A stretch of DNA of 34,387 nt, taken from positions 1-34,387 of the forward strand of contig PMFA01000008.1 of NCBI GenBank assembly GCA_003155915.1, read 5' to 3'. The DNA is from Acidimicrobiaceae bacterium (GTDB lineage: Bacteria > Actinomycetota > Acidimicrobiia > Acidimicrobiales > RAAP-2). The translations under genes were made by a program, and so were the position numbers. Positions 7,035-32,261 of the stretch are shown here, piece by piece (the stretch's first letter is position 1; every line of letters begins with the position of its first letter). The notes under the pieces are model-generated. The model was not told the DNA's origin, did not search any database, and was given only the letters and a program-made list of their open reading frames with translations.

Positions 7035-7049
7035 AGGGCCAGAAGTCCC
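7035..7049 (-). promoter_or_regulatory. DosR-box-like site A (hydrogenase operon)
   Basis: The minus strand reads GGGACTTCTGGCCCT, matching the mycobacterial DosR pattern GGGAC-N4-GNCCC at every defined position. It lies 332 bp upstream of the hydrogenase beta-subunit start and is the strongest of the sites found in this window. Confidence 0.65.
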
Positions 7050-7155
7050 ATCTCTCGATGTCCCGGGACTCTTCGGCCAATGGCACCACGACATATTTGA
7101 AGCGCTCGGGTGCGGTCGCGCGTTGTCCGAAGTCTCTGATAACGACGACCAATTC

Positions 7156-7170
7156 GTGACGTTTTGCCCT
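7156..7170 (+). promoter_or_regulatory. DosR-box-like site B (hydrogenase operon)
   Basis: GTGACGTTTTGCCCT, with the same GAC-N6-CCCT skeleton and spacing as site A but T at the second position and T in place of the downstream G. It lies 210 bp upstream of the hydrogenase operon start. Paired sites are usual at strongly DosR-regulated promoters. Confidence 0.45.
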
Positions 7171-7380
7171 AGTGAGGCTTTCATCTCCCGAAGCAAAATA
7201 CCGATAGGCCGAACTCGCTGATCGGAGTGGAGATGTTGAAGCCAATGTGGCGACGTAATCATGACGAAGCGCCTGGTCGGGCGCACGTTCCTGCGGCAGT
7301 GGCACCCCACGTCGAATTCTCGAATGAGTCGCAGGTAGTCACCAACACCGCTGCGCGCTCCAACGCAGAAAGGTGTAGTC

Positions 7381-8568
7381 GTGTCCACGGCGATTAACCA
7401 TTCGTCGAGCATCGGACTTGACCTCCAGACCATCGTCGTTCTGACAGTCGAGGGACTCGACGAGTTTGTAGCTCGATTGCGTGCATTGGGCTATGAGGTC
7501 ATGGGGCCAACGCTGCGCGACGGTGCCATCGTGCCCGGTCCGGTCAATTCCAGCAAGGACCTACCTCGAGGTGTGCACGACTTACAATCGCCAGGCTCCT
7601 ACCGCGTCATGCGCGAAGACGACGGTGAGATATTCGGATGGGCCGTCGGTCCGGGATCTTGGAAAAACGAGTACTTCCCCCCCAGCCAGGTCATGTGGCG
7701 CAGCGAGATCGTTGGCGACACACTGGTCTTTCGTCAACCCGATCGTTCGCATGCGCTCCTGGCAATCGTCGGCGCACGGCCCTGTGACGTTGCTGCGCTG
7801 CGCATACTGGACCACGTTCTGGAAGAGGGTGTCCATCGCGATTCGCGATATTCGGAGCGGCGCGACTCGAACTTCATCGCGGTCGTTGAATGCGCGAGTC
7901 CGGCTGACACATGTTTCTGCGCCTCGATGAAAAGCGGACCTGGGATTGACGAAGACTTCGACGTAGCACTGACCGAACTCAATGACGAACTCGGTCATCG
8001 ATTCATCGCGCGAATTGGTTCACCGCGCGGCGCCGACGTCCTCTCATCAGTTTCCACACGCCCGGCCAACGAACTGGACCTCGAGGCGCGCGCACTGCTT
8101 CTAGAGACGGCGTCGCGCGCGATGAGTCGAAGCCTCCCGTTTGACGAAGTCGCGAACCTGCTCGCGCGAAACGTGGAACACCCTAGGTGGCTCGACGTGG
8201 CCGAGCGGTGCCTCTCCTGCGGCAACTGCACCTCGGTCTGTCCCACCTGCTTTTGCAGCGACGTTCATGACACCACTGACACGTCTGGTGCAATCGAGCG
8301 CCGCCGTACCTGGTCGTCATGCTTCGACCTCGAGCACTCGTACCTTCACGGTGGTTCGGTACACGAATCGTCGTCGTCGCGCTATCGACAGTGGATGACA
8401 CACAAACTTTCGACGTGGTGGGATCAGTTCGATTCCACCGGTTGTGTCGGATGCGGTCGGTGCATCGTCTGGTGTCCAGTGGGAATCGACATCACCGAAG
8501 AGGTGGCGGCCATCGCCGCGCACGACCAGGCTCGAGTTGCGGTCCCGTCGCGACCGGGTGCGTCATGA
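7381..8568 (+). CDS. hyhB: group 3b-like [NiFe] hydrogenase, beta (4Fe-4S) subunit
   Basis: A 395-residue iron-sulfur subunit matching the beta subunit of soluble NADP-linked hydrogenases (Pyrococcus sulfhydrogenase HydB type). It carries electrons between the delta and gamma subunits. Two ferredoxin-like clusters are plain: Cys277, 280, 283, 287 (CLSCGNCTSVC) and Cys355, 358, 361, 365 (CVGCGRCIVWC), with extra Cys at 290 and 292 and a Cys-rich ADTCFC at 176-180. GARPCDVAAL (131-140) is typical of the family. The start is GTG at 7381 with AGAAAGG upstream. It heads the operon, and the order beta-gamma-delta-alpha is that of hydBGDA, with one gene inserted. The complex should be cytosolic, since no signal peptide is present. 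Confidence 0.9.
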   Translation: MSTAINHSSSIGLDLQTIVVLTVEGLDEFVARLRALGYEVMGPTLRDGAIVPGPVNSSKDLPRGVHDLQSPGSYRVMREDDGEIFGWAVGPGSWKNEYFPPSQVMWRSEIVGDTLVFRQPDRSHALLAIVGARPCDVAALRILDHVLEEGVHRDSRYSERRDSNFIAVVECASPADTCFCASMKSGPGIDEDFDVALTELNDELGHRFIARIGSPRGADVLSSVSTRPANELDLEARALLLETASRAMSRSLPFDEVANLLARNVEHPRWLDVAERCLSCGNCTSVCPTCFCSDVHDTTDTSGAIERRRTWSSCFDLEHSYLHGGSVHESSSSRYRQWMTHKLSTWWDQFDSTGCVGCGRCIVWCPVGIDITEEVAAIAAHDQARVAVPSRPGAS

Positions 8569-9035
8569 GTAAGGCCATGCGGGACCTCGTGGAAGTGCAC
8601 CCCTTCATGACGAGCATGAACGAAGAGTCGATCGAACTCGTCTCCGGATGTGCGCGCAACGCCGTCTTCGCACCGGGCAGCCTGCTCTGTGCTGAAGGCG
8701 GGGACGCCGACACCTTCTACTTGTTGCGGCGAGGTCAGGTCTCGATCAGTGTCCACATTCCCGGTCGTGGGTCCGTCGTTATCGAGACCGTGGGTGCCGG
8801 TGACGTCGTCGGGTGGAGCTGGTTGGTACCTCCCTACCGTTGGACCTTCGACGCGCGGGCCATGGACGACGTCGGGTGCATCGCCATCGACGGCGCCTGC
8901 TTGCGCGTCAAGGCCCTGACTGATCCGTCTTTGGGCTTCGCGTTGCTTTCCAAAGTCTCGGTGACACTTCTCGAGCGTCTCCAGGCCACGCGGATGCGTT
9001 TACTCGACCTCTACGGAGATCATCGTGTCCAGTGA
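8565..9035 (+). CDS. stand-alone cyclic-nucleotide-binding-fold protein
   Basis: A 156-residue protein consisting of a single CRP-type beta-barrel (about residues 15-125) and a C-terminal helix, with no helix-turn-helix, so it is not a DNA-binding CRP. The barrel shows PGSLLCAEGGDADTFYLLRRG and then GDVVGWSWLVPPYRWTFDARA. In cAMP binders the corresponding phosphate cassette has Gly-Glu and Arg-Ser/Thr-Ala; here these read Gly-Trp and Arg-Trp-Thr, so the usual ligand contacts are altered. It overlaps the beta subunit by 4 bp (ATGA) and the gamma subunit by 11 bp, so it is made with the hydrogenase. A role as regulatory or assembly subunit is inference. Confidence 0.85.
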   Translation: MSKAMRDLVEVHPFMTSMNEESIELVSGCARNAVFAPGSLLCAEGGDADTFYLLRRGQVSISVHIPGRGSVVIETVGAGDVVGWSWLVPPYRWTFDARAMDDVGCIAIDGACLRVKALTDPSLGFALLSKVSVTLLERLQATRMRLLDLYGDHRVQ

Positions 9036-9917
9036 CCGAACGCTGTCGATGAGACCTTCTTCCGTCGCACCACGCGGGAATCTCAATGACTTGACACCGA
9101 TCGTGCACCGAGTTGTCGAGCGCATCGGCGAGACGAACGACATCACGACACTGGTCCTCGAACCGCTCGACGCTCCGTCAATGACTTTCCGATGCGGTCA
9201 GTTCAATATGCTGAGCGCGTTCGGCGTGGGCGAGATCGCGATATCGATGAGCAGCGCCCCCGGTGAGGGCACGTTGCGCCACAGCATCCGAGACGTCGGC
9301 GCCGTATCCCACGCGCTCTGCCAGAGCCGTGTCGGCGACCTCGTCGGTGTGCGCGGCCCGTTCGGCAGCGACTGGCTCGTGGAGTCCGCCAGCGTCGAGG
9401 CCGACCTCGACCCCCGTGACACCATTGTGGTCGCGGGAGGAATCGGACTCGCCCCGCTTCGTGGAGCCGTAGAGGAATTGGTGCGGGCCAATGAACGTGG
9501 CGGCGGCCGCGTCTTCGTGCTCGTCGGCGCGCGCGAGCCTTCCCAAATCGTCTTCAGGGCGGACCTCGACTCGTGGAGGGCCCGCGGTGCCAAGGTTTCG
9601 CTGACCGTCGACCTCGCGACACCGGAGTGGGACGGCCGGGTCGGGCTGGTCACGACACTGCTGGCCGACGCGGGTTTTGACGCTACCAATTCGAGGGCGA
9701 TGCTCTGCGGGCCCGAAGTCATGATGCGTTTCACCGCGCGTGCGTTGGTCGATCTGGGGATGGATCCCGAGGGCATCCTCGTCTCGCTCGAACGCAATAT
9801 GCAATGTGGCGTCGGCTGGTGTGGTCACTGCCAACTGGGACCGTTCCTCCTTTGTCGTGACGGTCCGGTCGTTCCCTACGCCGGACTGGTGTCGCAACTA
9901 CTCACGCAGCGTGAACG

Positions 9918-9921
<4 letters not shown>
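9025..9921 (+). CDS. hyhG: group 3b-like hydrogenase, gamma (FAD/NAD(P)-binding) subunit
   Basis: A 298-residue ferredoxin-reductase-like subunit (HydG/PyrK type) that exchanges hydride with NAD(P)H. The N-terminal half is the FAD barrel, in which the usual RxYS is replaced by [10 protein letters not shown] (around residues 72-81). [10 protein letters not shown] begins the nucleotide-binding half, MLCGPEVM closes it, and a [2Fe-2S] site follows at Cys261, 266, 269 and 277 (CGVGWCGHC...C). The start is GTG at 9025 with ACGGAGA upstream, overlapping the preceding gene; an internal ATG at 9049 is less well placed. The stop overlaps the delta subunit by 4 bp. NADP rather than NAD preference is inferred from the group, not seen. 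Confidence 0.9.
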
Positions 9922-10756
<835 letters not shown>

Positions 10757-10760
<4 letters not shown>

Positions 10761-12058
10761 CCCACGGTGCCCGATCAAGTCGCACCATCAGCGCCGAGGG
10801 GATCTCTCGCGTAGAAGGAGAGGGCTCGCTGCGCGTGCGTGTCCAAGACGGACGGGTCGTCGACGTCGCGCTCGACATCTTTGAACCTCCTCGCTACTTC
10901 GAGGCGCTCTTGGTGGGGCGTCACTTCACCGAAGCGCCAGATATCACGGCGCGAATCTGCGGGATCTGCCCGGTCGCCTATCAGATGTCCGCCTGCCTCG
11001 CCATGGAAGACGCGTGCGGCGTTGTCGTGGACGAGAGAATCGAGGCCCTGCGTCGATTGTTGTACTGCGGGGAGTGGATACAGAGCCACGCGCTGCACAT
11101 CTATTTGCTGCACGCCCCGGACTTTCTGGGTTGCGCCGACGCGGTGGAACTGGCCGATCTCGATCCGATCGGCGTGACGCGCGGTCTCGATATAAAGCGA
11201 ACCGGCAACTTGGTCATGCAGACCGTGGGAGGGCGAGCCGTGCACCCGGTCAACGTCCGCGTCGGTGGCTTCTACCGTTCCCCCGAGCTCGACTCGATAC
11301 GAGCCCTGGCAGAGCCGTTGCGCCGTGCTCGCGACGCGGCCCTGGAGACGGTCGAATGGGTCGCCGGATTCGAGTTTCCTGACGTGACGAGCGAATATCG
11401 CTTCGTGGCGCTCGACCAGTCTGATCGATACGCCATCGATGGTGGCCGCCCTTCATTGGACGGACACACGCTCAGCGCGGCACAGTTCGCCGAGATCGCC
11501 GTCGAAGAACACGTCGAACGCTCAACCGCGTTGCATGCGAAACTCGACGGGCGCGATCGATACCTCACCGGTCCCCTGGCGCGATTTGCGCTGAACGCGT
11601 CACGCCTGCCCGAGGTGGCTCGCGACGCCGCCGCCGCCGCCGGACTGTACGCACCGTGCGTGAATCCGTTTCGAAGCATCGTGGTGCGCGCGGTTGAACT
11701 CGTCTTCGCGTGCGACGAGGCGCTTCGTCTCGTCGAGCGTTACGAGCCTCCGGTTCAGCCCGCCATCGAAGTCGTGGCGCGAGCGGCGACCGGCACGGCC
11801 ACCACGGAAGCCCCTCGAGGTCTCCTGCTCCACCAGTACGACATCGACGACGACGGCATCATCCGCCGGGCCCGAATCATGCCGCCGACGTCGCAGAATC
11901 AACTCAGCATCGAAGACGACCTGCGTCGAGTTGTGGAGAACGGACTCTCCCTCGACGATGAGGAATTGCAGTGGCGCTGTGAACAGGCGGTTCGCAATCA
12001 CGACCCCTGCATTTCGTGCGCCGCGCACTTCTTGGATCTCACGGTGGAAACGTCATGA
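10757..12058 (+). CDS. hyhL: group 3b-like hydrogenase, alpha (large, NiFe) subunit
   Basis: A 433-residue catalytic subunit. The two CxxC pairs that bind nickel and iron are present: Cys68/Cys71 in RICGIC and Cys418/Cys421 in DPCISCAAH. The chain continues nine residues beyond His424, the tail removed by the maturation protease encoded next. Length and the RICGICPVAYQMSA wording fit group 3 (cofactor-coupled, bidirectional) enzymes; assignment to 3b rests mainly on the four-subunit gene order. In mycobacteria the related Hyd3 evolves H2 with NAD(P)H during hypoxia; by analogy this enzyme may dispose of excess reductant. The stop overlaps the protease start. Confidence 0.93.
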
Positions 12059-12555
12059 TTGACACGAGAACCGCCAAGGTCGTCGTGGCCGGGTTCGGGA
12101 GCGAGTATCGCCACGACGACGGTGTCGGCACACTCGTCGCTGAGCGCGCGGTTGCCCAAGTATCGACGTCGCACTTCGTCGGATCGTTGAGCGACCCACT
12201 CGATCTCTTGGGAGAGTGGAACGGAGCGGATTTGGTCATCGTGGTCGACGCCATCCACTCGGGCGCGCCGGTGGGCACATTGCAAACGATCGAAATTGAC
12301 GTGGAGAACCTCTCGTGCACCGCACTCGACGCCGAGTCTGGAGCCGGTGAGTCGAGCACGCACGGCCTGGGCCTCGTCGCCGTCCTTCGACTCGCACGCG
12401 CGATCAATCAGGCACCTCGACGGCTCGTCATTATCGGCATCGAGGGTGAACGATTCGACCTCGGCGAAGGTCTGAGTGCTTCGGTCGAAGCGGCCGTTCC
12501 CGAAGCAGTGGCGCGAGTCGTGGAATTCATCAAGGAGGCGCAATCATGTGCGTGA
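12055..12555 (+). CDS. hydrogenase maturation endopeptidase (HyaD/HycI family)
   Basis: A 166-residue protease that clips the C-terminal tail of the large subunit after nickel insertion. The start VVVAGFGSEYRHDDGVG has the Gly-rich turn and Asp residues of the family, followed by LVIVVDAIHSGAPVG with the second metal-binding acidic position and STHGLGL with the His. The ATG at 12055 overlaps the large-subunit stop. It overlaps HypC by 10 bp. The substrate is almost certainly the adjacent HyhL, whose cleavage motif (His424) is intact. Confidence 0.9.
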   Translation: MIDTRTAKVVVAGFGSEYRHDDGVGTLVAERAVAQVSTSHFVGSLSDPLDLLGEWNGADLVIVVDAIHSGAPVGTLQTIEIDVENLSCTALDAESGAGESSTHGLGLVAVLRLARAINQAPRRLVIIGIEGERFDLGEGLSASVEAAVPEAVARVVEFIKEAQSCA

Positions 12556-12806
12556 GTTGCCTGGCAAATGTCCTCGAGAACGACGGACCGAAAAGGGTCG
12601 TGGTCGAGCACGTCAACGGACTCATTACGAGAGCGTCCTTACTCGCTCTCGACGGCCCTCCCCCGGAACCGGGGGACTGGGTGGTCGTCCACAGTGGTTA
12701 CGTCATCGATCGCCTCGACGCGGCCGACGCGCAGCGGGCCGTGGGCGAGATCCGTCGTGGCGAGCGAGATCTCGCCCACACGTTGATGGAAGGAGCCCAC
12801 CAATGA
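12546..12806 (+). CDS. hypC: hydrogenase maturation chaperone HypC
   Basis: An 86-residue HypC/HupF protein. The essential Met1-Cys2 start (MCVSC) and the GDWVVVHSGYVIDRLDAADA strand are diagnostic. HypC carries the Fe(CN)2CO unit with HypD and delivers it to the large-subunit precursor. The GGAGG ribosome-binding site lies inside the end of the protease gene. HypA, B, D, E and F are not in this window and must be encoded elsewhere if the hydrogenase is active. Confidence 0.93.
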   Translation: MCVSCLANVLENDGPKRVVVEHVNGLITRASLLALDGPPPEPGDWVVVHSGYVIDRLDAADAQRAVGEIRRGERDLAHTLMEGAHQ

Positions 12807-13783
12807 AATCGCGCAGCGATCAACGCATGCCCGGAATGCTCGTAGCCGGCGTCACCGCACTCGTCAGCGGTGTGTCGGTATTCGTCAACAGCTACGGTGT
12901 GCATTCGTTCAGCTCACCGGCGCTCTACACGACGGCCAAGAACATGGCAGCGGTCTTGTTCCTGGCCCTGGTCGCCTCCGCGGGCCTGTGGGCGCGCCGA
13001 GGAAACTCCTCAACATTCAGCGCACACTTCGTCACGCCGGAACGTTCGCACGAACTGCGCCACGGCGTCGGCTACTGGCTCGCACTGGCGTACGTCGGCG
13101 TCATCGGCGGCGGACTCGCCTTCGTTTTGTTCTTCAACGGGCTCGCCGTGAGCACCCCGGCCTCGGCGGCATTTTGGCGCGACACGATGGTGCTGTGGGT
13201 CGCGGCGCTCGCGATTCCCATCCTCCGGGAAAAAGTCGAGTGGTGGAATTACGTGGCGATCGCCCTGCTCGTCGCGGGCGAGATCATCGTCGCCGGTGGC
13301 GTCGGGCACCTGGCGTTCACGCGGGGTGAGTGTGACGTCCTCGCTTCGACCGCCCTGTGGGCCGTTGAAGTCGTGATCGCCCGACGGTTACTGCGCGAGA
13401 TGTCGCCGGCCGCACTGGCCCTCGTTCGCATGGGAGTGGGCGCCCTCGCCCTGTGCGTGTACCTGTCCGCGACCGGAGCGTTCGCGAACCTTCTGTCGCT
13501 CAACGCCCACCAGGTCTGGTGGGTGCTGGCGACGGGGCTTCTCCTTAGTGGCTACGTCGCCACGTGGATGACGGCACTCACTCGGGCCCGAGCACTTGAC
13601 GTGACGTCGGTGTTGGTGGCGAGCGCCGCCGTAACGTGGCTCCTCCAACTCGTCGCGGGCACCGTCACACCGGTGACCTCGACCATCGGGCTCGTGCTGA
13701 TCGCGGCCGGAGCGGGGCTCGTGATCTGGGCGGGCGTAACGAGGGCCTGGCAACCCGCTCGCCGACAAACGGTTATCGGATGA
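12803..13783 (+). CDS. EamA/DMT-family membrane transporter in hydrogenase operon
   Basis: A 326-residue integral membrane protein with about ten hydrophobic helices arranged as two similar halves, as in drug/metabolite transporters of the EamA type. The first half ends in the typical segment STPASAAFWRDTMVLWVA with REKVEWWNYVAIALLVAGE; the second half includes LDVTSVLVASAAVTWLLQ. It begins at the ATG overlapping the HypC stop and ends overlapping the next gene, so it is firmly part of the hydrogenase operon. The substrate is unknown. Nickel is not a known EamA substrate, so a nickel role would be speculation. Confidence 0.85.
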   Translation: MKSRSDQRMPGMLVAGVTALVSGVSVFVNSYGVHSFSSPALYTTAKNMAAVLFLALVASAGLWARRGNSSTFSAHFVTPERSHELRHGVGYWLALAYVGVIGGGLAFVLFFNGLAVSTPASAAFWRDTMVLWVAALAIPILREKVEWWNYVAIALLVAGEIIVAGGVGHLAFTRGECDVLASTALWAVEVVIARRLLREMSPAALALVRMGVGALALCVYLSATGAFANLLSLNAHQVWWVLATGLLLSGYVATWMTALTRARALDVTSVLVASAAVTWLLQLVAGTVTPVTSTIGLVLIAAGAGLVIWAGVTRAWQPARRQTVIG

Positions 13784-14580
13784 GCGTCGGCGACTCGGCC
13801 GTGCTGAGCGAGACACCACTCTCGGGACCACTGCTCTTTGCCCGTTACGCCTATCCACCAAACGAGCTGGGTTACTGCGGACCGAGTGACGCCAGCGCCC
13901 TCATCGATTCAGCGACCGAGGCCGGTGGAGAGAGTGAGTTGGGACACTTGGCCAAGCAGTTCGACGGCGCGTGGCCGTACCTCGAACTCATCGCGAGCTG
14001 TAACGGAATCTCCGATCCGCTCGACCGAAGGGTCGTCGAGGCGTACTGGGTGGGCAACGAATTGGCACGTCGCGTACCCGCGATGTCGCTGGCGGCGTCG
14101 CTCGACGATCGATTTGCCCGTCGCACCGCTCGAAACTTCGAGCCGCTGGTATCGGCGGCGTTCACCGGTGGAGTCATCCAACACAGCTTTCACGTGTTCG
14201 CGGTCTACCCGTGGTTCGGGTTGCTGCGCGCCGGCAAGGAGGGTGCGCCACTCCAGATCCTCGATCGTTGTCGTATCAGATGGGGTCAGGTCCTCAACGT
14301 GGACGGCGACTTCGTCACCGTGAAATCGCGTTCGCTCAAGTTCGAAGGATCACACCTACGTCTCGGTGCCGAAGGACTTGAAGTCGTGCGTCGCGCGCTC
14401 GGGGGTGTTGGTTTCGTTGACGACCTGGCTCCGGGCGACGTGGTATCCATGCACTGGGACTGGGTGTGCGACCGGTTGTCCGACGCGTCACTTAGTTGGC
14501 TCCAGAACTGCACGCGAATAAATCTCCACGCCGTGAACTGTCTCGCCCAACCAGGGCCGGCCGTGGTGTGCGGCGCGTAA
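13780..14580 (+). CDS. uncharacterised hydrogenase-operon protein
   Basis: A 266-residue soluble protein with no catalytic motif I can name. I recall similar proteins near actinobacterial [NiFe] hydrogenases (possibly the family called DUF6390; name unverified). Features include an N-terminal FARYAYPPNELGYCGPSD, repeated Trp/Tyr-rich segments, FHVFAVYPWFGLLRAGK in the middle, and several Cys (residue 33 of the N-terminal motif, INGC-like positions near ASCNG, VCDR, NCTR, NCLAQ). It starts at the ATG overlapping the transporter stop and is the last gene before a strong hairpin. Its conserved position suggests a hydrogenase accessory, perhaps maturation or regulation; this is inference. Confidence 0.75.
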   Translation: MSVGDSAVLSETPLSGPLLFARYAYPPNELGYCGPSDASALIDSATEAGGESELGHLAKQFDGAWPYLELIASCNGISDPLDRRVVEAYWVGNELARRVPAMSLAASLDDRFARRTARNFEPLVSAAFTGGVIQHSFHVFAVYPWFGLLRAGKEGAPLQILDRCRIRWGQVLNVDGDFVTVKSRSLKFEGSHLRLGAEGLEVVRRALGGVGFVDDLAPGDVVSMHWDWVCDRLSDASLSWLQNCTRINLHAVNCLAQPGPAVVCGA

Positions 14581-15109: not shown

Positions 15110-15203
15110 CACTTGACCCTCTTCCTGGAGAGCCTGCGGGCCCAGGATGAGTCGACAGACCTCTTCCAAACGTGAGAGTAGCGACGCGCGCCACGAGTTT
15201 CTA

Positions 15204-15217
15204 GAGCACAAAGTCAC
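15204..15217 (-). promoter_or_regulatory. weak DosR-box-like site C (hsp20)
   Basis: The minus strand reads GTGACTTTGTGCTC, about 95 bp upstream of the Hsp20 start. The left half matches the GTGACTTT seen in other sites of the window; the right half is degenerate. It is listed mainly for its position before an expected target gene. Confidence 0.25.
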
Positions 15218-18056: not shown

Positions 18057-18057
18057 G

Positions 18058-20703: not shown

Positions 20704-20777
20704 ATCTCTTCTTTTCGATCCCTGTCTAGCTACATCGTGCCATTCCGACATTAGTAGCGGGGCACTTCTTGGCATTC

Positions 20778-23677: not shown

Positions 23678-25255
23678 TCAGTCCACGGCGTCGCTCGAGT
23701 CGCTTCCTTCCGGGAATTCGCTCCCGTGATTGGGCAGCGAGAGCAAGATGACCAGTGCCGCAACGCCCACGACCGCGGTAGCGATCAAGAGCGCTTCGTC
23801 CATCCCTGAGACGAAGGAACGACGCGCCAATGTCGCGAGTTCGGCTCCCAGCTTCGACGGAGCGCGCCGGGCCACCGCCAGTGCCCCTTCGAGTGATCCG
23901 TCGATGAGCTTCTGCACCGACATCGGCACGTGCGCGCGTGCGACGACCGGCGCCATCATGTTTTGATAGCGCAGGTTGAGCACGGTGCCCAGCACGCCGA
24001 CACCCAGAGCGCCCCCCAATTGCATGGCGGTGTCGCTGGTAGCGGACCCGACTCCGGCCTGGGACCTGGGTAGCGAGCCCATGACCGATTCGGTGCACGG
24101 CGCCAGCGCGAGGGCGACACCCACGCCCACCATCACGAACGGCGCCAGAGTGTCTCGATAGGTTCCGGCGACGGTCGTGTGCGAGAGCATCGCGAAGGCG
24201 ATGGCCACCAGCACGAGCCCGGTCGTGACAACGTATTTCGTACCGACCGAGCGGGCCACCCACACCGAAAGCGGCGCGACGACCAAGAGCACCGCCGCCA
24301 CTGGGATGATGCGCACGCCAGCCTCGAGGGGGCTGTAGCCGAGATCGAACTGTAAGTACTGCGTCATGAGAAAGAACATGCCCAGCAGGGCGAAGAGTAC
24401 GAGCAACAACGCGGAGATGGCCACGCTGTAGCGGCGACTGGCGAAGAAGCGAAGGGGCAGCATCGGGTGATCAATTCGGCGCTCCCACGCGATGAACGCG
24501 ACGATGACCACCAACGCACCCAGCAATGAACCCACGATGATCGGGGAACTCCACCCGCGGCTCGGCGCCTCGATGATGCCCCACAGCAGGAGGCTGAGGC
24601 CGAACATCGAAAGACCGGCACCGACAGCGTCGGGACGCGCCGAACGGGGATTCTTGGAATTGGGCACCAGCCAGAGGGCGGCGAAGAAGCCGATCACGGC
24701 TATGGGCACGTTGACCAGAAACACCGACCCCCACCAGAAGTGAGAGAGGAGAACTCCTCCGAGTATTGGGCCCAGCGCGACGCCAATTCCGGTCGTGCCT
24801 GACCAAATGCCGATAGCGCGGACGCGCTCGCGCTCGGTCGTGAAGACGTTCGTGAGGATTGACAAGGTGCACGGCATCAGCGCGGCCGCGCCGATCCCCA
24901 TGGTGGCGCGCGCGATCGTCAGGACGTCGGGACTCACGGAGAACGCGGCGAACGCCGATCCGCCACCGAAGATCAACAGTCCGCCCATGAATACCCACTT
25001 GCGACCAATTCGGTCGCCCAACGCCCCGAGTGACAAGAGGAGACCCGCGAAGACCACGGCGTAGGCGTCAACCATCCACTGGAGCTGGCTGGGACTGGCG
25101 TTGAGGGCGCGCGCGATTTCCGGCAACGCCACGTTCAAGACGGTGTTGTCCAGACTGATCAGCAACAGGGTGATGCAGAGGACGGACAGCGTGGCCCATC
25201 GACGGTAGGGCGAACCCGGTGCCGACACGTCGCTCTTCGCGACAGAGATGGTCAC
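23678..25255 (-). CDS. MFS multidrug exporter, DHA2 (14-helix) family
   Basis: A 525-residue proton-coupled exporter of the EmrB/QacA type. Family motifs include LDNTVLNVALP in helix 1, GALGDRIGRK (motif A) in the loop after helix 2, and TGIGVALGPILGGVL (motif C, antiporter signature) in helix 5. About 14 hydrophobic helices fit DHA2. It starts at GTG 25253-25255. Its promoter region is shared with the divergent small-ORF/GNAT operon and includes DosR-like site E about 105 bp upstream. Substrate cannot be read from the sequence. Confidence 0.92.
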   Translation of the reverse strand: MTISVAKSDVSAPGSPYRRWATLSVLCITLLLISLDNTVLNVALPEIARALNASPSQLQWMVDAYAVVFAGLLLSLGALGDRIGRKWVFMGGLLIFGGGSAFAAFSVSPDVLTIARATMGIGAAALMPCTLSILTNVFTTERERVRAIGIWSGTTGIGVALGPILGGVLLSHFWWGSVFLVNVPIAVIGFFAALWLVPNSKNPRSARPDAVGAGLSMFGLSLLLWGIIEAPSRGWSSPIIVGSLLGALVVIVAFIAWERRIDHPMLPLRFFASRRYSVAISALLLVLFALLGMFFLMTQYLQFDLGYSPLEAGVRIIPVAAVLLVVAPLSVWVARSVGTKYVVTTGLVLVAIAFAMLSHTTVAGTYRDTLAPFVMVGVGVALALAPCTESVMGSLPRSQAGVGSATSDTAMQLGGALGVGVLGTVLNLRYQNMMAPVVARAHVPMSVQKLIDGSLEGALAVARRAPSKLGAELATLARRSFVSGMDEALLIATAVVGVAALVILLSLPNHGSEFPEGSDSSDAVD

Positions 25256-25358
25256 GCTCTCACCGTATGATCGATCGCTCGGCTGAGAAAGGGTAAAAGG
25301 TCACGAGTCTCCGCGAGGCGCTTTCGCTGCCACGGAGCAGCGACGCCACGCTATAACT

Positions 25359-25373
25359 GTGACATTCGTCCCT
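25359..25373 (+). promoter_or_regulatory. DosR-box-like site E (small ORF / GNAT operon)
   Basis: GTGACATTCGTCCCT matches GGGAC-N4-GNCCC with a single mismatch (T at position 2). It lies 35 bp before the small-ORF ATG at 25408. If TAGATT at about 25401 is the -10, the box centre is near -47, a usual activator position for DosR-type regulators. A 7-bp inverted repeat TCGTCCC/GGGACGA (25378-25400) follows it. Confidence 0.6.
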
Positions 25374-25556: not shown

Positions 25557-26168
25557 ATGACGTCGTCGCCCGAGTCAATGAAGCGCGAGGAGTTCATACC
25601 CGGGCGCTACCCCGGTGAGTTGGAGGCGAACTTCGTGGTCGTCACCGGAGCGACGTTACGGATGCGCCCGATTCGAGATGAAGACGCACAGAAGTTGATC
25701 GAGTTCCACGCGCGCCTCTCCTTTGACTCGATCTACCGTCGGTACTTCTCCATACACCCCGAGCTCTCCCCCGATGAGGTGCGACACCTCACGCAGGTCG
25801 ACTACGTGGATCGCTTAGCGCTCGTGATTGAAGACGGCGACGACCTCGTCGCCGTCGGTCGTTACGATCGAAGTCCGGACTCGACCACCGCCGAAGTCGC
25901 CTTCGTGGTCCGCGACGACTACCAGCACTTGGGACTCGGGCATCGACTTTTGGAGGCACTCGCCGAAGCCGCCCGGGCTCGAGGGATATCGACGTTCAGT
26001 GCCGAAACTCTGTTCACCAACCGTGACATGATGGCGGTCTTTCGCCACTCGGGCTACCCGTTGACAACGTCAGTCTCGCGCGGGGAGGTCAGTGTGCGCT
26101 TTTCGATCGACCCGACTCCTGACGTCGAAGCATCGCCGCGCGGCAGCGAAAACGGACCTTCCTCCTGA
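25557..26168 (+). CDS. GNAT-family N-acetyltransferase
   Basis: A 203-residue acetyltransferase. The fold runs from about residue 27 (LRMRPIRDEDAQKL) to 170; AEVAFVVRDDYQHLGLGHRL holds the acetyl-CoA pyrophosphate loop (Q-H-L-G-L-G), followed by LFTNRDMMAVFRHSGY. It resembles the catalytic domain of actinobacterial protein-lysine acetyltransferases (Pat-like) but lacks their regulatory domain. The ATG at 25557 directly follows the small ORF; upstream TTG extension is disfavoured by codon use. The stop overlaps the deacetylase start by one base, suggesting an acetylation/deacetylation pair. The substrate is unknown. Confidence 0.85.
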   Translation: MTSSPESMKREEFIPGRYPGELEANFVVVTGATLRMRPIRDEDAQKLIEFHARLSFDSIYRRYFSIHPELSPDEVRHLTQVDYVDRLALVIEDGDDLVAVGRYDRSPDSTTAEVAFVVRDDYQHLGLGHRLLEALAEAARARGISTFSAETLFTNRDMMAVFRHSGYPLTTSVSRGEVSVRFSIDPTPDVEASPRGSENGPSS

Positions 26169-27214
26169 TGGTGCTCGTTATCAATGAAGGGTTCAATGAC
26201 GCGGGTCACGAAGACCCGGGGCATCCGGAGCGTCCCGATCGCGTGGTCGCGGCTCGGTCGGCCGTCGACGACCTACATCTCGGCGATGACCTCGTGGTCG
26301 TCGGGGCCCATTCGGCCACGCGCGACGAGCTCGTGCGCGTTCATAGCGGAATCTATCTCGATGAACTCAGCGCCTATTGCTATTCCGGTGGAGGCGACAT
26401 TGATCAAGACACCTACGCCACGTTGGATTCATTCACAATCGCCAAGTACGCAGCCGGCGCCGGACTCGCCGTGATCGAGGAACTGCAACGGCGAAACGAC
26501 GGCGTGGGCTTCGTCGCGGCCCGGCCACCCGGGCACCACGCACTGGCTGACCGAGCGATGGGATTTTGTTTGTTGAACAACGTCGCGGTCGCCGCGGCCG
26601 CACTGCGAAGTCAGGGCGAGAGAGTCCTCATCGTCGATTGGGACGTGCACCACGGTAATGGGACCCAACAGATCTTCTGGGATGTGCCCGAGGTCCTCTA
26701 CGTCTCGACGCATCAATGGCCCCTCTTTCCCGGTACCGGCTCGGTGAACGAAGTAGGCGGTCGCCACGCAGCCGACCGCACGGTCAACATCCCGTTGCCC
26801 CCGGGCGCCACCGGCGACGTCCTGCGCCGAGGGATCGATGAGATGGCCGGACCGGTCATTGACTCGTTCGACCCGACCTGGGTGTTGGTGTCCGCGGGCT
26901 ATGACGCCCACCGCGCGGATCCGATGGCTGACCTTCGTCTCACGAGCGGAGACTTCGCCTTGTTGGCGCGCTGCGTGAGCGACTACGCGCCAGTGCCCGG
27001 TCGCGTCGTCATGTTCCTTGAAGGTGGCTACGACCTCGGAGCGTTGCGTTCTTCTATCCACGCCTCACTGAGCGCCGCCCTCGGGCAACCTCACGATGGC
27101 GAGTCCCCCTCCAACGGAGGCCCGGGCACGGAGCAGATTGAGCGAATGCGCCAATCCCGCCGATCGACAGTTGAGATGCTGCACGCTAGCGATGACGAGG
27201 AGTCGACACAATGA
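26168..27214 (+). CDS. HDAC/AcuC-family zinc deacetylase
   Basis: A 348-residue class II-like histone-deacetylase-fold enzyme, in bacteria acting on acetyl-lysine proteins or acetylpolyamines. Motifs: HPERPDR (19-25), RPPGHH (119-124; His123/His124 catalytic pair), DWDVHHGNGTQ with zinc ligands Asp159 and His161, DAHRADPMADL with zinc ligand Asp251, and LEGGYDL with catalytic Tyr288, so it should be active. The ATG overlaps the GNAT stop, and its own end overlaps the second USP by 4 bp. Pairing with a GNAT recalls the AcuA/AcuC switch on acetyl-CoA synthetase in Bacillus. The last 40 residues are polar and variable. Confidence 0.92.
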   Translation: MVLVINEGFNDAGHEDPGHPERPDRVVAARSAVDDLHLGDDLVVVGAHSATRDELVRVHSGIYLDELSAYCYSGGGDIDQDTYATLDSFTIAKYAAGAGLAVIEELQRRNDGVGFVAARPPGHHALADRAMGFCLLNNVAVAAAALRSQGERVLIVDWDVHHGNGTQQIFWDVPEVLYVSTHQWPLFPGTGSVNEVGGRHAADRTVNIPLPPGATGDVLRRGIDEMAGPVIDSFDPTWVLVSAGYDAHRADPMADLRLTSGDFALLARCVSDYAPVPGRVVMFLEGGYDLGALRSSIHASLSAALGQPHDGESPSNGGPGTEQIERMRQSRRSTVEMLHASDDEESTQ

Positions 27215-27633
27215 AACCCTTCCAGCACGTGGCGGTCGGTTACGACGGTTCGCCGGACGCGACGAACGCCGTACGCTGGACGTTCGACGCGGCACGCGAA
27301 GTCCACTCCAGCGTCACGATCGTCCACGCGATTGGCTTGATCGAGCATCAACGAAAGCATTTCTCAACGGACCGCGTCCCGCCAGCGCTGCTCGCCCTCG
27401 CCAAGGAGTGCGCGTTCGAGGAGAGTGAGTTGCACTGGCTCGTCGAGGACGGTGACGCGTGCTCAGTTCTCTTGCGCATGACGTCCCCGCCTATCAACGC
27501 CGACATGTTGGTGGTGGGTTCACGGGGCGAAGGAAAACGTGAAGGACTTCTTTTGGGTAGCACGAGCCTCGAACTCGCCGAGCACGCAAGTGTGCCGGTC
27601 GTTGTAGTTCCGTCGGATTTCACCGAACACTGA
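27211..27633 (+). CDS. universal stress protein (UspA family), copy 2
   Basis: A 140-residue single-domain USP. VAVGYDGSPDATNAVRW starts the fold and VVGSRGEGKREGLLLGSTS holds the ATP-binding G-2x-G-9x-G-S/T motif. It is shorter than copy 1 and only moderately similar. It overlaps the deacetylase by 4 bp and ends the operon that begins after DosR-like site E. USPs under DosR control in mycobacteria bind ATP and affect growth arrest; a similar role here is inferred. Confidence 0.92.
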   Translation: MKPFQHVAVGYDGSPDATNAVRWTFDAAREVHSSVTIVHAIGLIEHQRKHFSTDRVPPALLALAKECAFEESELHWLVEDGDACSVLLRMTSPPINADMLVVGSRGEGKREGLLLGSTSLELAEHASVPVVVVPSDFTEH

Positions 27634-27743: not shown

Positions 27744-28118
27744 TCAATTACCCAGGAACTGGTCGCTCGCTGACGCATCACATACTCGACTTCGCACGAT
27801 GAAGTGAAGGCCCGGGCCGGCCGCAAGGGAGAATCCCTCGGGTTCCCCGGCGCCCACGTCTAACGTCAGCCGGGTTCCCTTCCATACCTCGTACTGTCGA
27901 TGATCGATGTAAAACGGACAGTCGCTGATCGTTCCAAGCAGAACATCGTGATCGCCGATGATGAACTCACCCTGGCGAAAGCACATCGGGAGGCTCCCGT
28001 CACAACACCCTCCCGACTGAAAGAACATGACGGGCCCACCCGCGCTCACCAGGTCGGCGATGGCGCTTCGCGCCTCCCCAGTCGCGTCGATACCTGGCGG
28101 CTCCGGTGGGCCCGTCAT
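27744..28118 (-). CDS. DUF779 protein, aldehyde-dehydrogenase associated
   Basis: A 124-residue protein of the DUF779 family. Diagnostic segments are VMFFQSGGCCDGSLPMC with a Cys-Cys pair, IGDHDVLLGTI and FYIDHRQYEVWKGTRL. The Cys and His residues suggest a metal site. Members nearly always sit beside an ExaC/AcoD-like aldehyde dehydrogenase, as here, where the dehydrogenase gene ends 12 bp upstream; an accessory role for that enzyme is likely but unproven. AAGGAC precedes the ATG. Confidence 0.88.
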   Translation of the reverse strand: MTGPPEPPGIDATGEARSAIADLVSAGGPVMFFQSGGCCDGSLPMCFRQGEFIIGDHDVLLGTISDCPFYIDHRQYEVWKGTRLTLDVGAGEPEGFSLAAGPGLHFIVRSRVCDASASDQFLGN

Positions 28119-28130
28119 GCGAGCATGTCC

Positions 28131-29705
28131 TTAGAAGAACCCGAGCGGCTTGGTGCTGTAACTCACGAGAAGGTTCTTCGTTTGTGAGTAGTGCTCCAGC
28201 ATCATCTGGTGGTTTTCACGCCCGATGCCGGAGATCTTGTAACCACCGAAGGCGGCGCCCGCCGGGTACAGGTGGTAGCAGTTCGTCCACACTCGTCCCG
28301 CTTTGATGCCGCGACCCATTCGATAGGCCAAGTTCCCGTCACGGGTCCATACGCCCGCGCCGAGTCCGTAGAGCGAGTCGTTGGCAATCTCCAGAGCTTG
28401 CGCTTCGTCCGTGAAGGTCGTCACCGCGAGAACGGGTCCGAAGATCTCTTCTTGGAAGACTCGCATCTTGTTGTGACCCTTCATCACCGTTGGCTCGAAG
28501 TAGTACCCGTCCGCCAACGTCTCATCCACCGTCGCAACGTTGCCCCCAATGAGGACCTGTGCGCCTTCTTGCTTACCGATCTCGACGTAGGACTCGATCT
28601 TTTCGAGTTGCTGATTCGATACCTGTGCGCCAATCATGGTGCTGGTGTCGAGCGGGTTGCCCTGGGTGATCTTGGCGATGCGGGCCAAGCAGCGTTCCAT
28701 GAACTTGTCGTAGATCGACTCCTGAATGAGTGCTCTTGACGGGCAAGTGCAGACTTCGCCCTTGTTGAAGGCATACAGCACCAGTCCCTCAATGGCCTTG
28801 TCCAGGAATTCGTCGTCAGCGTTCATCACGTCGGCGAAGAAGATGTTGGGTGACTTACCGCCCAATTCGACCGTCGAAGGAATGAGGTTCTGCGCCGCGT
28901 ACTGCATGATGAGTCGCCCCGTCGTCGTCTCACCGGTGAAGCCGATCTTCGCGATACGAGGGCTGGTGGCCAGGGCCTTGCCGATTTCCGCCCCGGGACC
29001 GGTGACAACGTTGATCACGCCCTTGGGTACGATGCCATCGAGCAACTCGGCGAACTTGAGAATTGACCACGGCGTTGGGGAGGCGGGCTTGAGCACGGTG
29101 CAGTTGCCCGCGGCCAGAGCCGGAGCGATCTTCCACGCCGCCATGAGGAGCGGGAAGTTGAACGGGATGATCTGTCCCACGACACCGAGCGGCTCGTGGA
29201 AGTGGAACGCCACCGTGTCCTTGTCAATCTCGGTCGTACGGCCCTCGAGCGATCGAGTGGCCCCCGCGAAATAGCGGAAGTGGTCGATGGCGAGCGGTAG
29301 GTCGGCCGCCAAAGTCTCGCGCACCGGCTTGCCGTTTTCGTAACTCTCCGCGACGGCCAACATGGTGAGATTGGCCTCGAGCACATCGGCAATCATGTTG
29401 AGGACCTTCGCGCGGTCCGTGAGTGAGGTCTCTCCCCAAGCCACTCGCGCTGCGTGGGCCGCGTCGAGCGCCAACTCGACGTCCTCCTTCGTCGAACGCG
29501 CCACCTGGCAGAAGGCCTTGCCGTCGACCGGCGACACGTCGTCCATGTACTCGCCCTTCACGGGTGGTACCCACTTCCCGCCAATGAAGTTCTCATAACG
29601 CGCCTTGAGCGATACGAGACTCCCTTCGAGCCCGGGGGCGATGAATACTTTCACGTTGTCCGCCGCGTCTACCTTTGCCGCGTCATTCACCATCAAATTC
29701 GTCAT
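28131..29705 (-). CDS. NAD-dependent aldehyde dehydrogenase, ExaC/AcoD-like
   Basis: A 524-residue aldehyde dehydrogenase oxidising acetaldehyde or similar aldehydes to acids. Motifs: [20 protein letters not shown] (cofactor fold), [10 protein letters not shown], the general-base Glu280 in ELGGKSPN, and nucleophile Cys319 in [10 protein letters not shown]; the EVCTCPSR wording is typical of the ExaC/AcoD branch. AGGAG precedes the ATG at 29703-29705. It is co-transcribed with the DUF779 gene and divergent from a zinc alcohol dehydrogenase, so alcohol and aldehyde conversion may be co-regulated through DosR-like site F between them. Confidence 0.95.
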
Positions 29706-29775: not shown

Positions 29776-29790
29776 TAGGTCGAAAGTCAC
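29776..29790 (-). promoter_or_regulatory. DosR-box-like site F (ALDH / ADH)
   Basis: The minus strand reads GTGACTTTCGACCTA: the left half and spacer agree with the mycobacterial form GGGACTTTCG apart from T at position 2, and the right half reads ACCTA instead of NCCCT. It lies 71 bp upstream of the aldehyde dehydrogenase ATG and 89 bp upstream of the alcohol dehydrogenase ATG. Confidence 0.45.
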
Positions 29791-29878: not shown

Positions 29879-30895
29879 ATGTCGACGATGCGGGCGTGGG
29901 CCGTCCAGACGCCGGGCCCGATTGACACGCAACCGCTTGTCCTCACCGAGCGGGCACTGCCGGCTCCCGGTCTCGGCGAGGTGCGCCTGCACGTCGTTGC
30001 CTGCGGAGTGTGTCGCACCGATCTTCATCTCGCCGAAGGCGACCTCGCACCGCGTCGCCCACTCGTAGTGCCCGGACACGAGGTCGTGGGCGTCGTCGAT
30101 GAACTGGGCGAAGGCACGTCGAAGCTCCGCGTGGGCGATCGGGTCGGCGCCGCCTGGCTGGCGCACACGTGTGGGACCTGCCGCTTCTGTCTCGCCGAGA
30201 AAGAGAATCTTTGCCTTGATCCCACCTTCACCGGATGGGATATCGACGGCGGGTACGCGACGTACGTGGTGGTACGCGAGGACTATATCTATCGTTTGCC
30301 CGAGGGATTCGACGACGCGGCGGTGGCGCCCTTGCTCTGTGCGGGGATCATCGGTTTTCGCGCCCTACGTCGTACGGAACTACCCAAGGGCGGCCGTCTC
30401 GGGATCTACGGCTTTGGTGGCTCAGCGCACCTCACCGCTCAAATCGCCATCGCCGAGGGAGCTCGCGTTCACGTAATGACCCGCTCACCCGAATCACGCG
30501 AGCTCGCCCTCGCCCTCGGGGCGGCGAGCGTGGGTGACACCGATGATGCTCCCCCGGGATCATTGGATGGCGCCATCCTCTTCGCTCCTGTGGGCGAGAT
30601 AGTGCCCACAGCCCTTCGCGCGCTCGATCGTGGCGGGATTCTGGCGGTAGCGGGTATCTATCTCACTGACATTCCCGCGCTGAATTATGAACACCACCTC
30701 TTCCAAGAGCGAACGCTGCGCAGCGTCACCGCGAACACACGACACGACGGCGCCGAATTCCTCGGAATCGCTGCGAAGATTGGCATTCGCTCGACCGTGC
30801 ATCGATACCCCTTCGACGAGGCGGACCACGCACTCAGTGACCTCGCTCATGAGAAATTCAGCGGCGCCGCGGTGCTCGTTGACTTCGATTCATAG
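29879..30895 (+). CDS. zinc-dependent alcohol dehydrogenase
   Basis: A 338-residue medium-chain dehydrogenase. Catalytic zinc ligands are Cys45 in CGVCRTDLH and His67/Glu68 in PGHE; the structural zinc site has Cys98, Cys101, Cys104 and Cys112 (TCGTCRFCLAEKENLC). The Rossmann fold begins GIYGFGGSAH. It interconverts alcohols and aldehydes with NAD(P)H. The ATG at 29879 is chosen for GAGGTGA just upstream and the family-like MRAW start. It is divergent from the aldehyde dehydrogenase. Direction in the cell is unknown; under hypoxia it could regenerate oxidised cofactor by reducing aldehydes. Confidence 0.93.
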   Translation: MSTMRAWAVQTPGPIDTQPLVLTERALPAPGLGEVRLHVVACGVCRTDLHLAEGDLAPRRPLVVPGHEVVGVVDELGEGTSKLRVGDRVGAAWLAHTCGTCRFCLAEKENLCLDPTFTGWDIDGGYATYVVVREDYIYRLPEGFDDAAVAPLLCAGIIGFRALRRTELPKGGRLGIYGFGGSAHLTAQIAIAEGARVHVMTRSPESRELALALGAASVGDTDDAPPGSLDGAILFAPVGEIVPTALRALDRGGILAVAGIYLTDIPALNYEHHLFQERTLRSVTANTRHDGAEFLGIAAKIGIRSTVHRYPFDEADHALSDLAHEKFSGAAVLVDFDS

Positions 30896-30918: not shown

Positions 30919-30925
30919 ATGAATT

Positions 30926-30940
30926 ATGACCAATGACCCT
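30926..30940 (+). promoter_or_regulatory. DosR-box-like site G (diguanylate cyclase)
   Basis: ATGACCAATGACCCT fits R-K-GAC-N4-K-N-CCCT with an intact right half (GACCC). It lies 134 bp upstream of the diguanylate cyclase GTG and just after the alcohol dehydrogenase hairpin, so the cyclase is the only reasonable target. Confidence 0.45.
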
Positions 30941-31074
30941 GTTCCTGGAACGAGGATGTCATTCAAACTTGGGTTGTGCTTCGGTATTGAGATTGACACC
31001 CAAAGCGCAGCGTTGCACACGTCGGAGGCATCCAAGGCTCGTGAGAACCTCGTCCGAATTAGGAGAGGTTCCCA

Positions 31075-32205
31075 GTGAATTTCATTGTTGAAGGGCCTCG
31101 ATCGAAACATGGCGGTGACGAACCAGTCTCGTCAATTCCACCTCGTTTCGACGGACAACAACACACCAAGCAATTCTGGTCGCGCTACCTTCGCGTGGGC
31201 ATTCTCGTGTTCACCTTTGAAGCCGTCGCGACGCTCGCGTATCTGGTCCTGACACCCAACGCAGCGCACCGGACCTTTCTGATCACCTTTACGTCGATCA
31301 TCATCCTCTGTCTGCTATCGAACATTCCCCTCACTGAGCGCGTCGCTTCGGCCCCGTGGCGAACGAAGTACACCTTCGGCTGGACGCTCGTCGCCGGCTT
31401 GGTCTTAACACTGGAGATACATCTGGACGGAGGTCTCCACAGTCCGCTCTTCGTTCTTCTGACGCTGCCCATCGTGAGCGCTGCTCTGGCGCTCGAAATT
31501 CGCCAGGTCATCGTGTGCGGAGTCGCAACGCTGGGCGAGTTTGCCTACATCTGGCTGAACGACCCGGCGGCGCAAAGATCCTCTTCCGAAATCGCCATGT
31601 TCGCGATGTCACTTCTTGGTCTCGTGATCATCGCGGTTGGCGTCTCGACAGCCCGCTCACGACTCTTGGACGATGAGTATCACCTGAGGGCTGAACTCGC
31701 AACGCTGGCGACGACGGACGCGCTGACCGGATGTCTCAATCACGGCGCGTTCTATGAGCGTCTCGAGGTGGAGATCGATCGCGCACTTCGTTTGGATCTA
31801 CCGTTGAGCCTCTTGATGATCGACATCGATTACTTCAAAGCATTCAATGACACGTTCGGCCATTGGGCCGGCGATGACGCGCTGGGTGCCGTGGGAGCGA
31901 TACTCACGAAAACGAGTCGCAGTTTCGATTCCGTGGGAAGGGTGGGCGGCGACGAGTTCGCCGTCGCACTGCCCACCGCGACAATCGCCCACGCGGCGCA
32001 GATCGCCCATCGTATGCGCGAGGCGTTATCGGGCGACGAACGTCCGTCAGTGAGTGTCGGCTACGCCGCGCTTGATCCGTTGCGACCGAGCGCGGAAGAA
32101 CTGGTTCGCGATGCCGACCGAAGTCTCTACGAAGTGAAGATAGAGAGCCGCGGCCAACAGGCCAACCAGTCACCACGAACGGCTTCACCGTTGGATGACA
32201 CATAG
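31075..32205 (+). CDS. membrane-bound diguanylate cyclase
   Basis: A 376-residue enzyme making cyclic di-GMP from two GTP. Residues 40-195 contain about six hydrophobic helices forming an integral membrane sensor of unrecognised type; a short linker leads to the GGDEF domain (about 205-365). The active site GGDEF (291-295) is intact and the inhibitory site RxxD (Arg282-Asp285) stands five residues before it, so feedback control by product is expected. ATTDALTGCLNHGAF and IDIDYFKAFND are typical. It starts at GTG with AGGAGAGG upstream. No phosphodiesterase is seen in the window. Confidence 0.93.
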   Translation: MNFIVEGPRSKHGGDEPVSSIPPRFDGQQHTKQFWSRYLRVGILVFTFEAVATLAYLVLTPNAAHRTFLITFTSIIILCLLSNIPLTERVASAPWRTKYTFGWTLVAGLVLTLEIHLDGGLHSPLFVLLTLPIVSAALALEIRQVIVCGVATLGEFAYIWLNDPAAQRSSSEIAMFAMSLLGLVIIAVGVSTARSRLLDDEYHLRAELATLATTDALTGCLNHGAFYERLEVEIDRALRLDLPLSLLMIDIDYFKAFNDTFGHWAGDDALGAVGAILTKTSRSFDSVGRVGGDEFAVALPTATIAHAAQIAHRMREALSGDERPSVSVGYAALDPLRPSAEELVRDADRSLYEVKIESRGQQANQSPRTASPLDDT

Positions 32206-32246
32206 GTCGCACCGCCCGACATCGACGCTCACTCCAGATTGTCCTT

Positions 32247-32261
32247 GGGGGCCGCGGTCAC
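32247..32261 (-). promoter_or_regulatory. weak DosR-box-like site H (sensor kinase)
   Basis: The minus strand reads GTGACCGCGGCCCCC, matching GAC-N4-G-N-CCC; its GC-rich spacer makes a chance match easier. It lies about 170 bp upstream of the kinase start, where autoregulation would place it. Confidence 0.3.

Follow-up and report, generated by a model that had tools for sequence, protein, structure and literature searches.

The closest described counterparts of the system reported here are the mycobacterial DosR (DevR) regulon and the OsdKR system of Streptomyces coelicolor. The dos regulon of Mycobacterium smegmatis is described as including the hydrogenases Hhy and Hyh (PMC8125079), and the beta-gamma-delta-alpha-protease cluster MSMEG_3931-3927 of that species as induced at low oxygen (PMC2799521). 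In S. coelicolor, predicted OsdR sites are reported to precede USP, pyruvate phosphate dikinase (PPDK), PNPOx and zinc-dehydrogenase genes, as well as osdR (PMC5069765). We analysed a stretch of 34,387 nucleotides (nt) from an Acidimicrobiaceae bacterium (contig PMFA01000008.1, assembly GCA_003155915.1), hereafter the window, in which motifs resembling the DosR box recur between genes. The window is the entire contig C23 of a 29-contig, 2.52-Mb draft and makes up 1.4% of the genome.

The boxes are very probably operators of a DosR/DevR-family regulator encoded on contig C26, and would head a predicted low-oxygen regulon. This reading draws on a regulator in which the phospho-acceptor and DNA-contact residues of the mycobacterial protein are conserved, on a kinase whose GAF domain is nearest to DosT with the heme histidine kept, and on a box that stands at near-constant spacing before the dosR run across the genus and recurs before homologous targets.

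Boxes in the window and in the genome

A first-pass annotation had picked five sites of the strict pattern RKGAC-N4-KN-CCCT by eye. All five are present, the one at 7035 on the minus strand, and a scan of both strands gives six, adding 25290-25304(-), which had been missed. Dinucleotide shuffles of the window contain a mean of 0.55 strict sites, and 0 of 100 reach six. All six lie between genes, so the enrichment and the intergenic placement first claimed both hold. Genes were called with a simple caller of our own, trained on stretches of the same genome, on which the gene starts depend. A mechanical list of open reading frames contains a minus-strand frame of 230 amino acids (6741-7433) that spans both hydrogenase sites; it has no Pfam match and is rejected by the caller. 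The boxes and their genes are listed below, with scores and ranks from the matrix scan described in the next section.

7035-7049, minus: box, farther second site before the hydrogenase operon; strict, score 17.3, rank 4
7156-7170, plus: box before the hydrogenase operon; strict, score 21.9, rank 1
7381-14580, plus: NiFe hydrogenase gene run (Pfam, gene caller), made up of the next nine entries
7381-8568, plus: hydrogenase beta
8577-9035, plus: cyclic-nucleotide-binding domain protein
9091-9921, plus: hydrogenase gamma
9918-10760, plus: hydrogenase delta
10757-12058, plus: hydrogenase alpha
12055-12555, plus: maturation protease
12546-12806, plus: frame of 86 amino acids, unassigned
12803-13783, plus: EamA
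13780-14580, plus: DUF6390
14672-15109, minus: Hsp20 family protein (Pfam HSP20 5e-21 on the longer frame 14672-15217; start by caller)
15203-15217, minus: relaxed box before hsp20; score 15.7, rank 5; intergenic if hsp20 starts where the caller places it
20233-20703, minus: universal stress protein Usp1 (Pfam Usp 1e-26)
20966-20980, plus: box in the gap 262 nt from Usp1 and 133 nt from an ABC transporter gene; strict, score 13.9, rank 6
23678-25255, minus: MFS transporter (Pfam MFS_1 8.7e-52)
25290-25304, minus: box, 34 nt before the MFS gene; strict, score 11.9, rank 7
25359-25373, plus: box before GNAT-HDAC-Usp; strict, score 21.5, rank 2
25557-26168, plus: Pat-like GNAT acetyltransferase (Pfam; ATG at 25557, longest frame from TTG at 25422)
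26168-27214, plus: HDAC-family deacylase (Pfam Hist_deacetyl 1.6e-78; nearest HDAC6 and bacterial deacylase structures)
27211-27633, plus: universal stress protein Usp2 (Pfam Usp 8e-21)
27744-28118, minus: DUF779 (Pfam 5.6e-37), grouped with the next gene (27744-29705)
28131-29705, minus: aldehyde dehydrogenase, ALDH (Pfam 3.4e-156)
29776-29790, minus: relaxed box in the divergent ALDH/ADH promoter; score 9.9
29879-30895, plus: zinc-type alcohol dehydrogenase, ADH (Pfam ADH_N 2.6e-28)
30926-30940, plus: box before the GGDEF gene; strict, score 17.7, rank 3
31075-32205, plus: GGDEF (diguanylate cyclase) protein (Pfam 3.1e-33)
32434-34365, plus: PAS-PAS-GAF-HisKA_3 histidine kinase (Pfam)

Three relaxed sites had also been proposed. 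Those at 15204 (in the register 15203-15217) and 29776 are supported; the third, 32247-32261(-), scores 3.6, ranks 21 in the window amid coding matches, and is rejected as noise. The 15203 site counts as intergenic only if hsp20 begins near 15109, the start suggested by both caller and Pfam match; the longest frame begins at 15217. A promoter and terminator scan of 20600-21200, around the Usp1 box, found nothing.

The window boxes share the DosR-box register GGGAC-N4-GNCCC, as first proposed, and differ from it in the left half, which is mostly GTGAC: T occupies position 2 in 19 of the 29 training boxes of the matrix, and GGGACN4GNCCC has a single exact match in the window, at 7036(-). This lineage has its own form of the DosR box, in which GTGAC is preferred over GGGAC. 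GGGACN4GNCCC with up to two mismatches shows no enrichment (146 found, 193 expected) and is useless as a scan.

GTGAC can also be read as the half-site of a CRP/FNR-type operator, whose CRP consensus is TGTGA-N6-TCACA. The left half GTGA does resemble a CRP half-site, and a protein with a cyclic-nucleotide-binding domain is encoded within the hydrogenase run. Against this, the conserved right half is CCCTA, and the full consensus is absent from the window (as a palindrome, it was sought on the plus strand); the core GTGA-N6-TCAC occurs only at 20779, 23434 and 28411, none of which coincides with a box. We therefore reject this reading, which is highly improbable.

By Pfam family, the regulon genes of the window are the NiFe hydrogenase, Hsp20, two Usp, MFS, GNAT-HDAC-Usp, ALDH/ADH and GGDEF genes; the kinds first named (hydrogenase, USP, GNAT/HDAC/USP, cyclase) were right. 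The hydrogenase alpha subunit has sulfhydrogenase 1 and cytosolic NiFe-hydrogenase as its nearest structures, and the NCBIfam matches of the run are all under the model cut-offs. The M. smegmatis cluster MSMEG_3931-3927 is presumably Hyh.

In the whole genome the strict pattern has 41 matches, six of them in the window, and the reversed pattern 24. Sorted by position, 19 of the 41 are intergenic, 2 lie at gene edges and 20 are intragenic. Non-coding DNA amounts to 13.9%, as estimated from an unselected 360-kb sample of the genome, and the 21 matches outside gene interiors exceed that share (binomial p=1.6e-8), as do 13 of the 35 matches outside the window (p=5e-4). The bare pattern is thus biased towards intergenic DNA, less clearly than the box with its flanks; genome-wide it picks up real sites together with chance matches.

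Beyond the window, intergenic strict boxes stand before cydA (C14), before the PPDK gene (C21:83632), between PfkB and GAPDH genes (C21:95837), between phosphoribosyltransferase and PNPOx-type genes (C11:73018) and before an MFS gene (C1:9900). Others, with no obvious link to the regulon, lie at a contig end (C3) or near proteins without a Pfam match. By gene family, the box-headed set overlaps the DosR and OsdR targets documented in other bacteria.

Elsewhere in the window, a gene run at 1331-6669 encodes an NMT1-type binding protein, an ABC permease and ATPase, a luciferase-like monooxygenase and a TauD dioxygenase. It looks like a run for organosulfur uptake and use, and the pattern scan of the window finds no strict box before it. 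At 17376-19911, the gene of a DUF294/CBS/cyclic-nucleotide-binding protein adjoins that of an RNase_T-type exonuclease.

The proposed regulator, its probable kinase and conservation of the box

A search of the genome for LuxR-type DNA-binding domains yields five genes above the cut-off and one below. The dosR orthologue, C26:96178-96822 on the minus strand, encodes a receiver-GerE protein. Among solved structures it is closest to M. tuberculosis DevR/DosR (3c3w, 1.1e-59), followed by VraR (3.8e-35); among the NCBIfam matches listed none is over its cut-off, the best being MadR with 159 against 300. The equivalents of D54, T82, K104, K179 and N183 are conserved in 110 of 110 DosR relatives (30 loci including our genome, plus 80 named loci), and the K182 equivalent is lysine in 108 and arginine in the other two. 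The residue numbering follows PMC5999986 in part.

dosR is the last gene of a PNPOx-kinase-dosR run. The kinase has a GAF-HisKA_3 architecture; its GAF domain is nearest to the heme domain of DosT (2vzw, 1.3e-36), with the histidine of an HPPM motif aligned to the proximal His149/147 position and, as in DosT, a glycine at the position of DosS Glu87. The roles of these DosS/DosT GAF residues are treated in PMC4082495. By sequence, the C26 kinase is the probable partner sensor, with a DosT-like, putatively heme-binding GAF domain.

A second kinase, at 32434-34365 in the window, is a possible extra sensor that might feed a FixL-like oxygen input to DosR. The heme PAS of FixL (2cmn, 6.6e-19) is the closest structure to its first PAS domain, and DosT (3zxq, 4.6e-17) the closest to its transmitter. 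The RSRH stretch, which contains the FixL heme histidine, is aligned in that PAS. Weak relatives of this kinase (29-31%) lie near DosR homologues at loci L293, L295 and L342.

In our genome a box precedes the dosR run at C26:98430. Among the 38 genus genomes with a DosR of 75% identity or more, at least 34 carry a box in the same orientation as dosR and 1582-1639 bp ahead of it; counted over all dosR loci listed, the figure is at least 34 of 61. Most of the named relatives are metagenome-assembled genomes labelled Acidimicrobiaceae. Eleven close named relatives (DosR 76-90% identical; 8 Acidimicrobiaceae, 3 Actinomycetes; six from palsa, bog or fen) give a finer picture: the box is present in ten, exactly 50 nt before PNPOx in eight and 77 nt in two (L098, L099), and is missing in L097. 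When ten of the upstream regions are aligned, GTGAC....G.CCCTA forms the main conserved block in nine, L097 being the exception, with a few further conserved columns near the start codon and farther upstream. The first-pass annotation had held that its reading would fall if the genome lacked a DosR-type regulator; such a regulator is found, with a conserved box before its own operon. Across the 61 genus genomes, GTGACN4GNCCCTA occurs 151 times and its reverse 53 times (totals from a per-genome table).

Boxes next to dosR homologues take several other forms. At L296 (G005:C73) and L297 (G006:C43), dosR is followed immediately by cydA in the same orientation, and the short gap separating the two contains a strict box. 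Three distant relatives, one of them Ferrithrix thermotolerans, carry a strict box about 60 nt directly upstream of a dosR homologue (L149:5940, L165:5139, L174:5940). In G051, the interval between HDAC and dosR genes contains a box that is fully palindromic, AGGGACGTACGTCCCT (L337:6124-6139).

The box also recurs before homologous targets. Among 88 promoters of four window genes and cydA, which include our own genome, where 4 of 5 have the box, 22 carry the strict box and none the reversed pattern; shuffles predict about 0.6. By family the counts are 5/10 for the hydrogenase (hydB), 4/28 for GNAT, in a set that reaches down to about 50% identity and of which many may not be orthologues, 4/20 for ALDH, taken from the returned loci L235-L256 only (at least 65% identity), 7/28 for cydA and 2/2 for GGDEF. 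Five upstream regions shorter than 150 bases (L186, L188, L215, L250, L253) are omitted from the count. Positions recur as well among the promoters that have a box: -85/-86 in 4/4 ALDH promoters, -149 in 2/2 GGDEF promoters and -50 to -61 in 4/7 cydA promoters. The 34-nt gap between the 25290 box and the MFS gene is the same in our genome, G028 and G015, and the 70-nt gap between the relaxed 29776 site and ALDH equals that of the strict box in G063. Within the genus, the hydrogenase gene occurs in 11 of 61 genomes and the GGDEF gene in 2 of 61, so that much of the regulon is lineage-specific.

A 25-position matrix was trained on 29 boxes of other genomes, drawn from the homologous promoters and dosR operons with own-genome promoter loci excluded. 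Of 68,726 window placements, the seven with the highest scores (7156, 25359, 30926, 7035, 15203, 20966 and 25290) all lie between genes. The eighth is a coding match at 28552, and the ninth is 29776. At scores of at least 12, background stretches hold 7.05 sites per 1e5 placements in intergenic and 0.65 in coding DNA, and intergenic DNA of the window holds 73 (6/8216). The first-pass annotation had also named a motif equally frequent inside genes as grounds for refutation; with its flanks included, the motif is instead enriched between them. A at position 16 marks 11/19 intergenic and 3/20 coding strict matches of the genome (Fisher 0.006; bases read by eye, two gene-edge matches omitted).

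Several results weigh against the operator reading. The training boxes were picked by the same pattern, so the fixed positions of the matrix are circular, and only flanks and spacer are independent; this independent signal includes an A-rich left flank and the A and G following CCCT. No strict box is found in 66 of the 88 homologous promoters, and 20 of the genome's 41 strict matches fall within genes. When one mismatch is allowed, the genome has 17 matches to the 17-mer GTGACN4GNCCCTAG, no enrichment over the 24 of the reversed control. Several intergenic matches have no obvious link to the regulon, among them those near a transposase fragment (C9:53411), on the 3' side of an rRNA methylase gene (C9:76631) and before a DNA polymerase III subunit gene (C26:39886). 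Finally, no DosR is found at E 1e-45 in four of the 61 genus genomes, which together hold 7 boxes and 3 reversed ones. One genome without DosR at that threshold, G001, a draft of 91% completeness, has five GTGACN4GNCCCTA boxes and none reversed, through either a missing contig or another regulator.

The intragenic half of the strict matches and the unenriched 17-mer would fit a short degenerate pattern picked by eye and repeated by chance. We give this explanation practically no weight, since no shuffle of the window reaches six sites, the box recurs at matching positions in homologous promoters where its reverse never occurs, and it precedes at least 34 of 38 dosR operons.

The five boxes of G001 would equally fit operators that are real and used mainly by another NarL/FixJ-type regulator, with DosR as one user or none. 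Our genome has further LuxR-type genes, on C10, on C28 and in two more cases above the cut-off. Yet the strict matches near the C10 and C28 genes are intragenic, the DNA-contact residues are those of mycobacterial DosR, the register GAC-N4-N2-CC equals that of the published boxes (PMC5069765), and at least 34 of 38 genomes have the box before the dosR operon itself. Another main regulator is therefore improbable. DosR-regulon control, as first proposed, is supported by the regulator, the box of its operon and the intergenic enrichment.

A putative box-headed acetylation cassette

The gene run behind the 25359 box joins a protein-lysine GNAT gene and a deacetylase gene, as in cassettes of the Pat/AcuA-AcuC type, judged by family and gene order. 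The nearest structures to the GNAT are 4nxy (deposited as an acyl-CoA synthetase, 1.8e-30), the lysine acetyltransferase 4ava (9e-22) and other protein acetyltransferases. We take 4ava to be the mycobacterial Pat. The NCBIfam Pat model matches the GNAT below its cut-off (100.7 against 460).

In M. tuberculosis, Rv0998 (Pat) is reported to acetylate DosR at K182 (PMC5861037), a modification described as abolishing DNA binding and as reversed by the sirtuin Rv1151c (PMC5999986). In M. smegmatis, Pat is reported to acetylate a universal stress protein (PMC8556138, PMC6640162). From this literature, DosR and Usp are candidate acetylation substrates here.

The cassette is adjoined by a DosR homologue (57-59% identity) in G028, G063 and G008; none lies near the GNAT in the genus stretches L298, L299 and L301, nor in the window. 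Among 20 order-level HDAC loci (ranks 2-21 of 99 HDAC-positive genomes, some stretches ending at contig ends), a DosR homologue (52-63%) shares the stretch in 6, from five families (G051, G164, G040, G039, G183, G046), and in 14 it does not; the links in G051, G040, G039 and G046 had been noticed before this count. G051, G164 and G040 each have a strict box 118-142 nt ahead of the HDAC match, and G039 has one 32 nt before a divergent dosR. This recurrent neighbourhood of dosR with an acetyltransferase/deacylase pair is the strongest new lead, and it could be plain clustering of regulon genes.

Rather speculatively, the operon may provide DosR-controlled acetylation feedback, in which writer and eraser would set acetylation of the K182 equivalent (and of Usp) and tie DosR binding to acetyl-CoA supply. 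We consider this possible, though doubtful. The neighbourhood is a naturally occurring setting in which to ask whether the switch inherently includes DosR acetylation.

The known Pat/AcuA-AcuC systems likewise keep GNAT and HDAC-family deacetylase genes together, acuA and acuC being described as sharing one operon (PMC8556138). Here, in contrast, Usp is the third gene, and the run is box-headed and near dosR homologues in several families. By Pfam, the GNAT frame, unlike Pat, has no cAMP domain. The eraser is of the HDAC type, whereas M. tuberculosis is reported to use the sirtuin Rv1151c (PMC5999986).

A predicted low-oxygen regulon and its known counterparts

In the proposed mechanism, oxygen leaving the kinase heme, or binding of NO or CO, would switch the kinase on. 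The activated kinase would phosphorylate DosR, whose dimers would then bind the boxes and activate a low-oxygen gene set. This set would comprise the hydrogenase, Hsp20, the Usps, the aldehyde and alcohol dehydrogenases, MFS, cytochrome bd, PPDK, the diguanylate cyclase and the GNAT-HDAC-Usp operon. As dosR is itself box-headed, the circuit would include positive feedback. From sequence evidence, we infer that low oxygen would induce the box-headed genes.

The DosR dormancy system would thereby extend to Acidimicrobiales, and little-studied actinobacteria of peat and permafrost type would gain a low-oxygen regulon that includes both hydrogenase and bd oxidase genes. We found no open-licence paper that names DosR together with Acidimicrobiia or Acidimicrobiales, the subscription literature being mostly outside the scope of that search; on DosR with histone deacetylases and acetyltransferases, a single review came up.

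Compared with OsdKR of S. coelicolor, as described in PMC5069765, the system shares the register, the Usp, PPDK, PNPOx and zinc-dehydrogenase targets and a site before the regulator's own gene. The OsdR consensus AGGGCCGATCGGCCCT has GCC where the boxes here read GAC (PMC5069765). As a literal match this consensus is rejected: the pattern used fixes GAC in the six strict window sites and in every training box. Nitrate reductase, a prominent OsdR target (PMC5069765), is not among the genes seen here.

With the mycobacterial DosR/DevR regulon, the system has in common the DNA-contact residues, the DosT-like sensor domain, the box register and the Hsp20, Usp and hydrogenase genes. It differs in the GTGAC-type left half and in the PNPOx-kinase-dosR operon. 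The kinase has one GAF domain by Pfam, whereas mycobacterial DosS is described with GAF-A and GAF-B (PMC4082495). In contrast to the mycobacterial regulon, boxes here also precede cydA, the diguanylate cyclase gene and the GNAT-HDAC-Usp operon.

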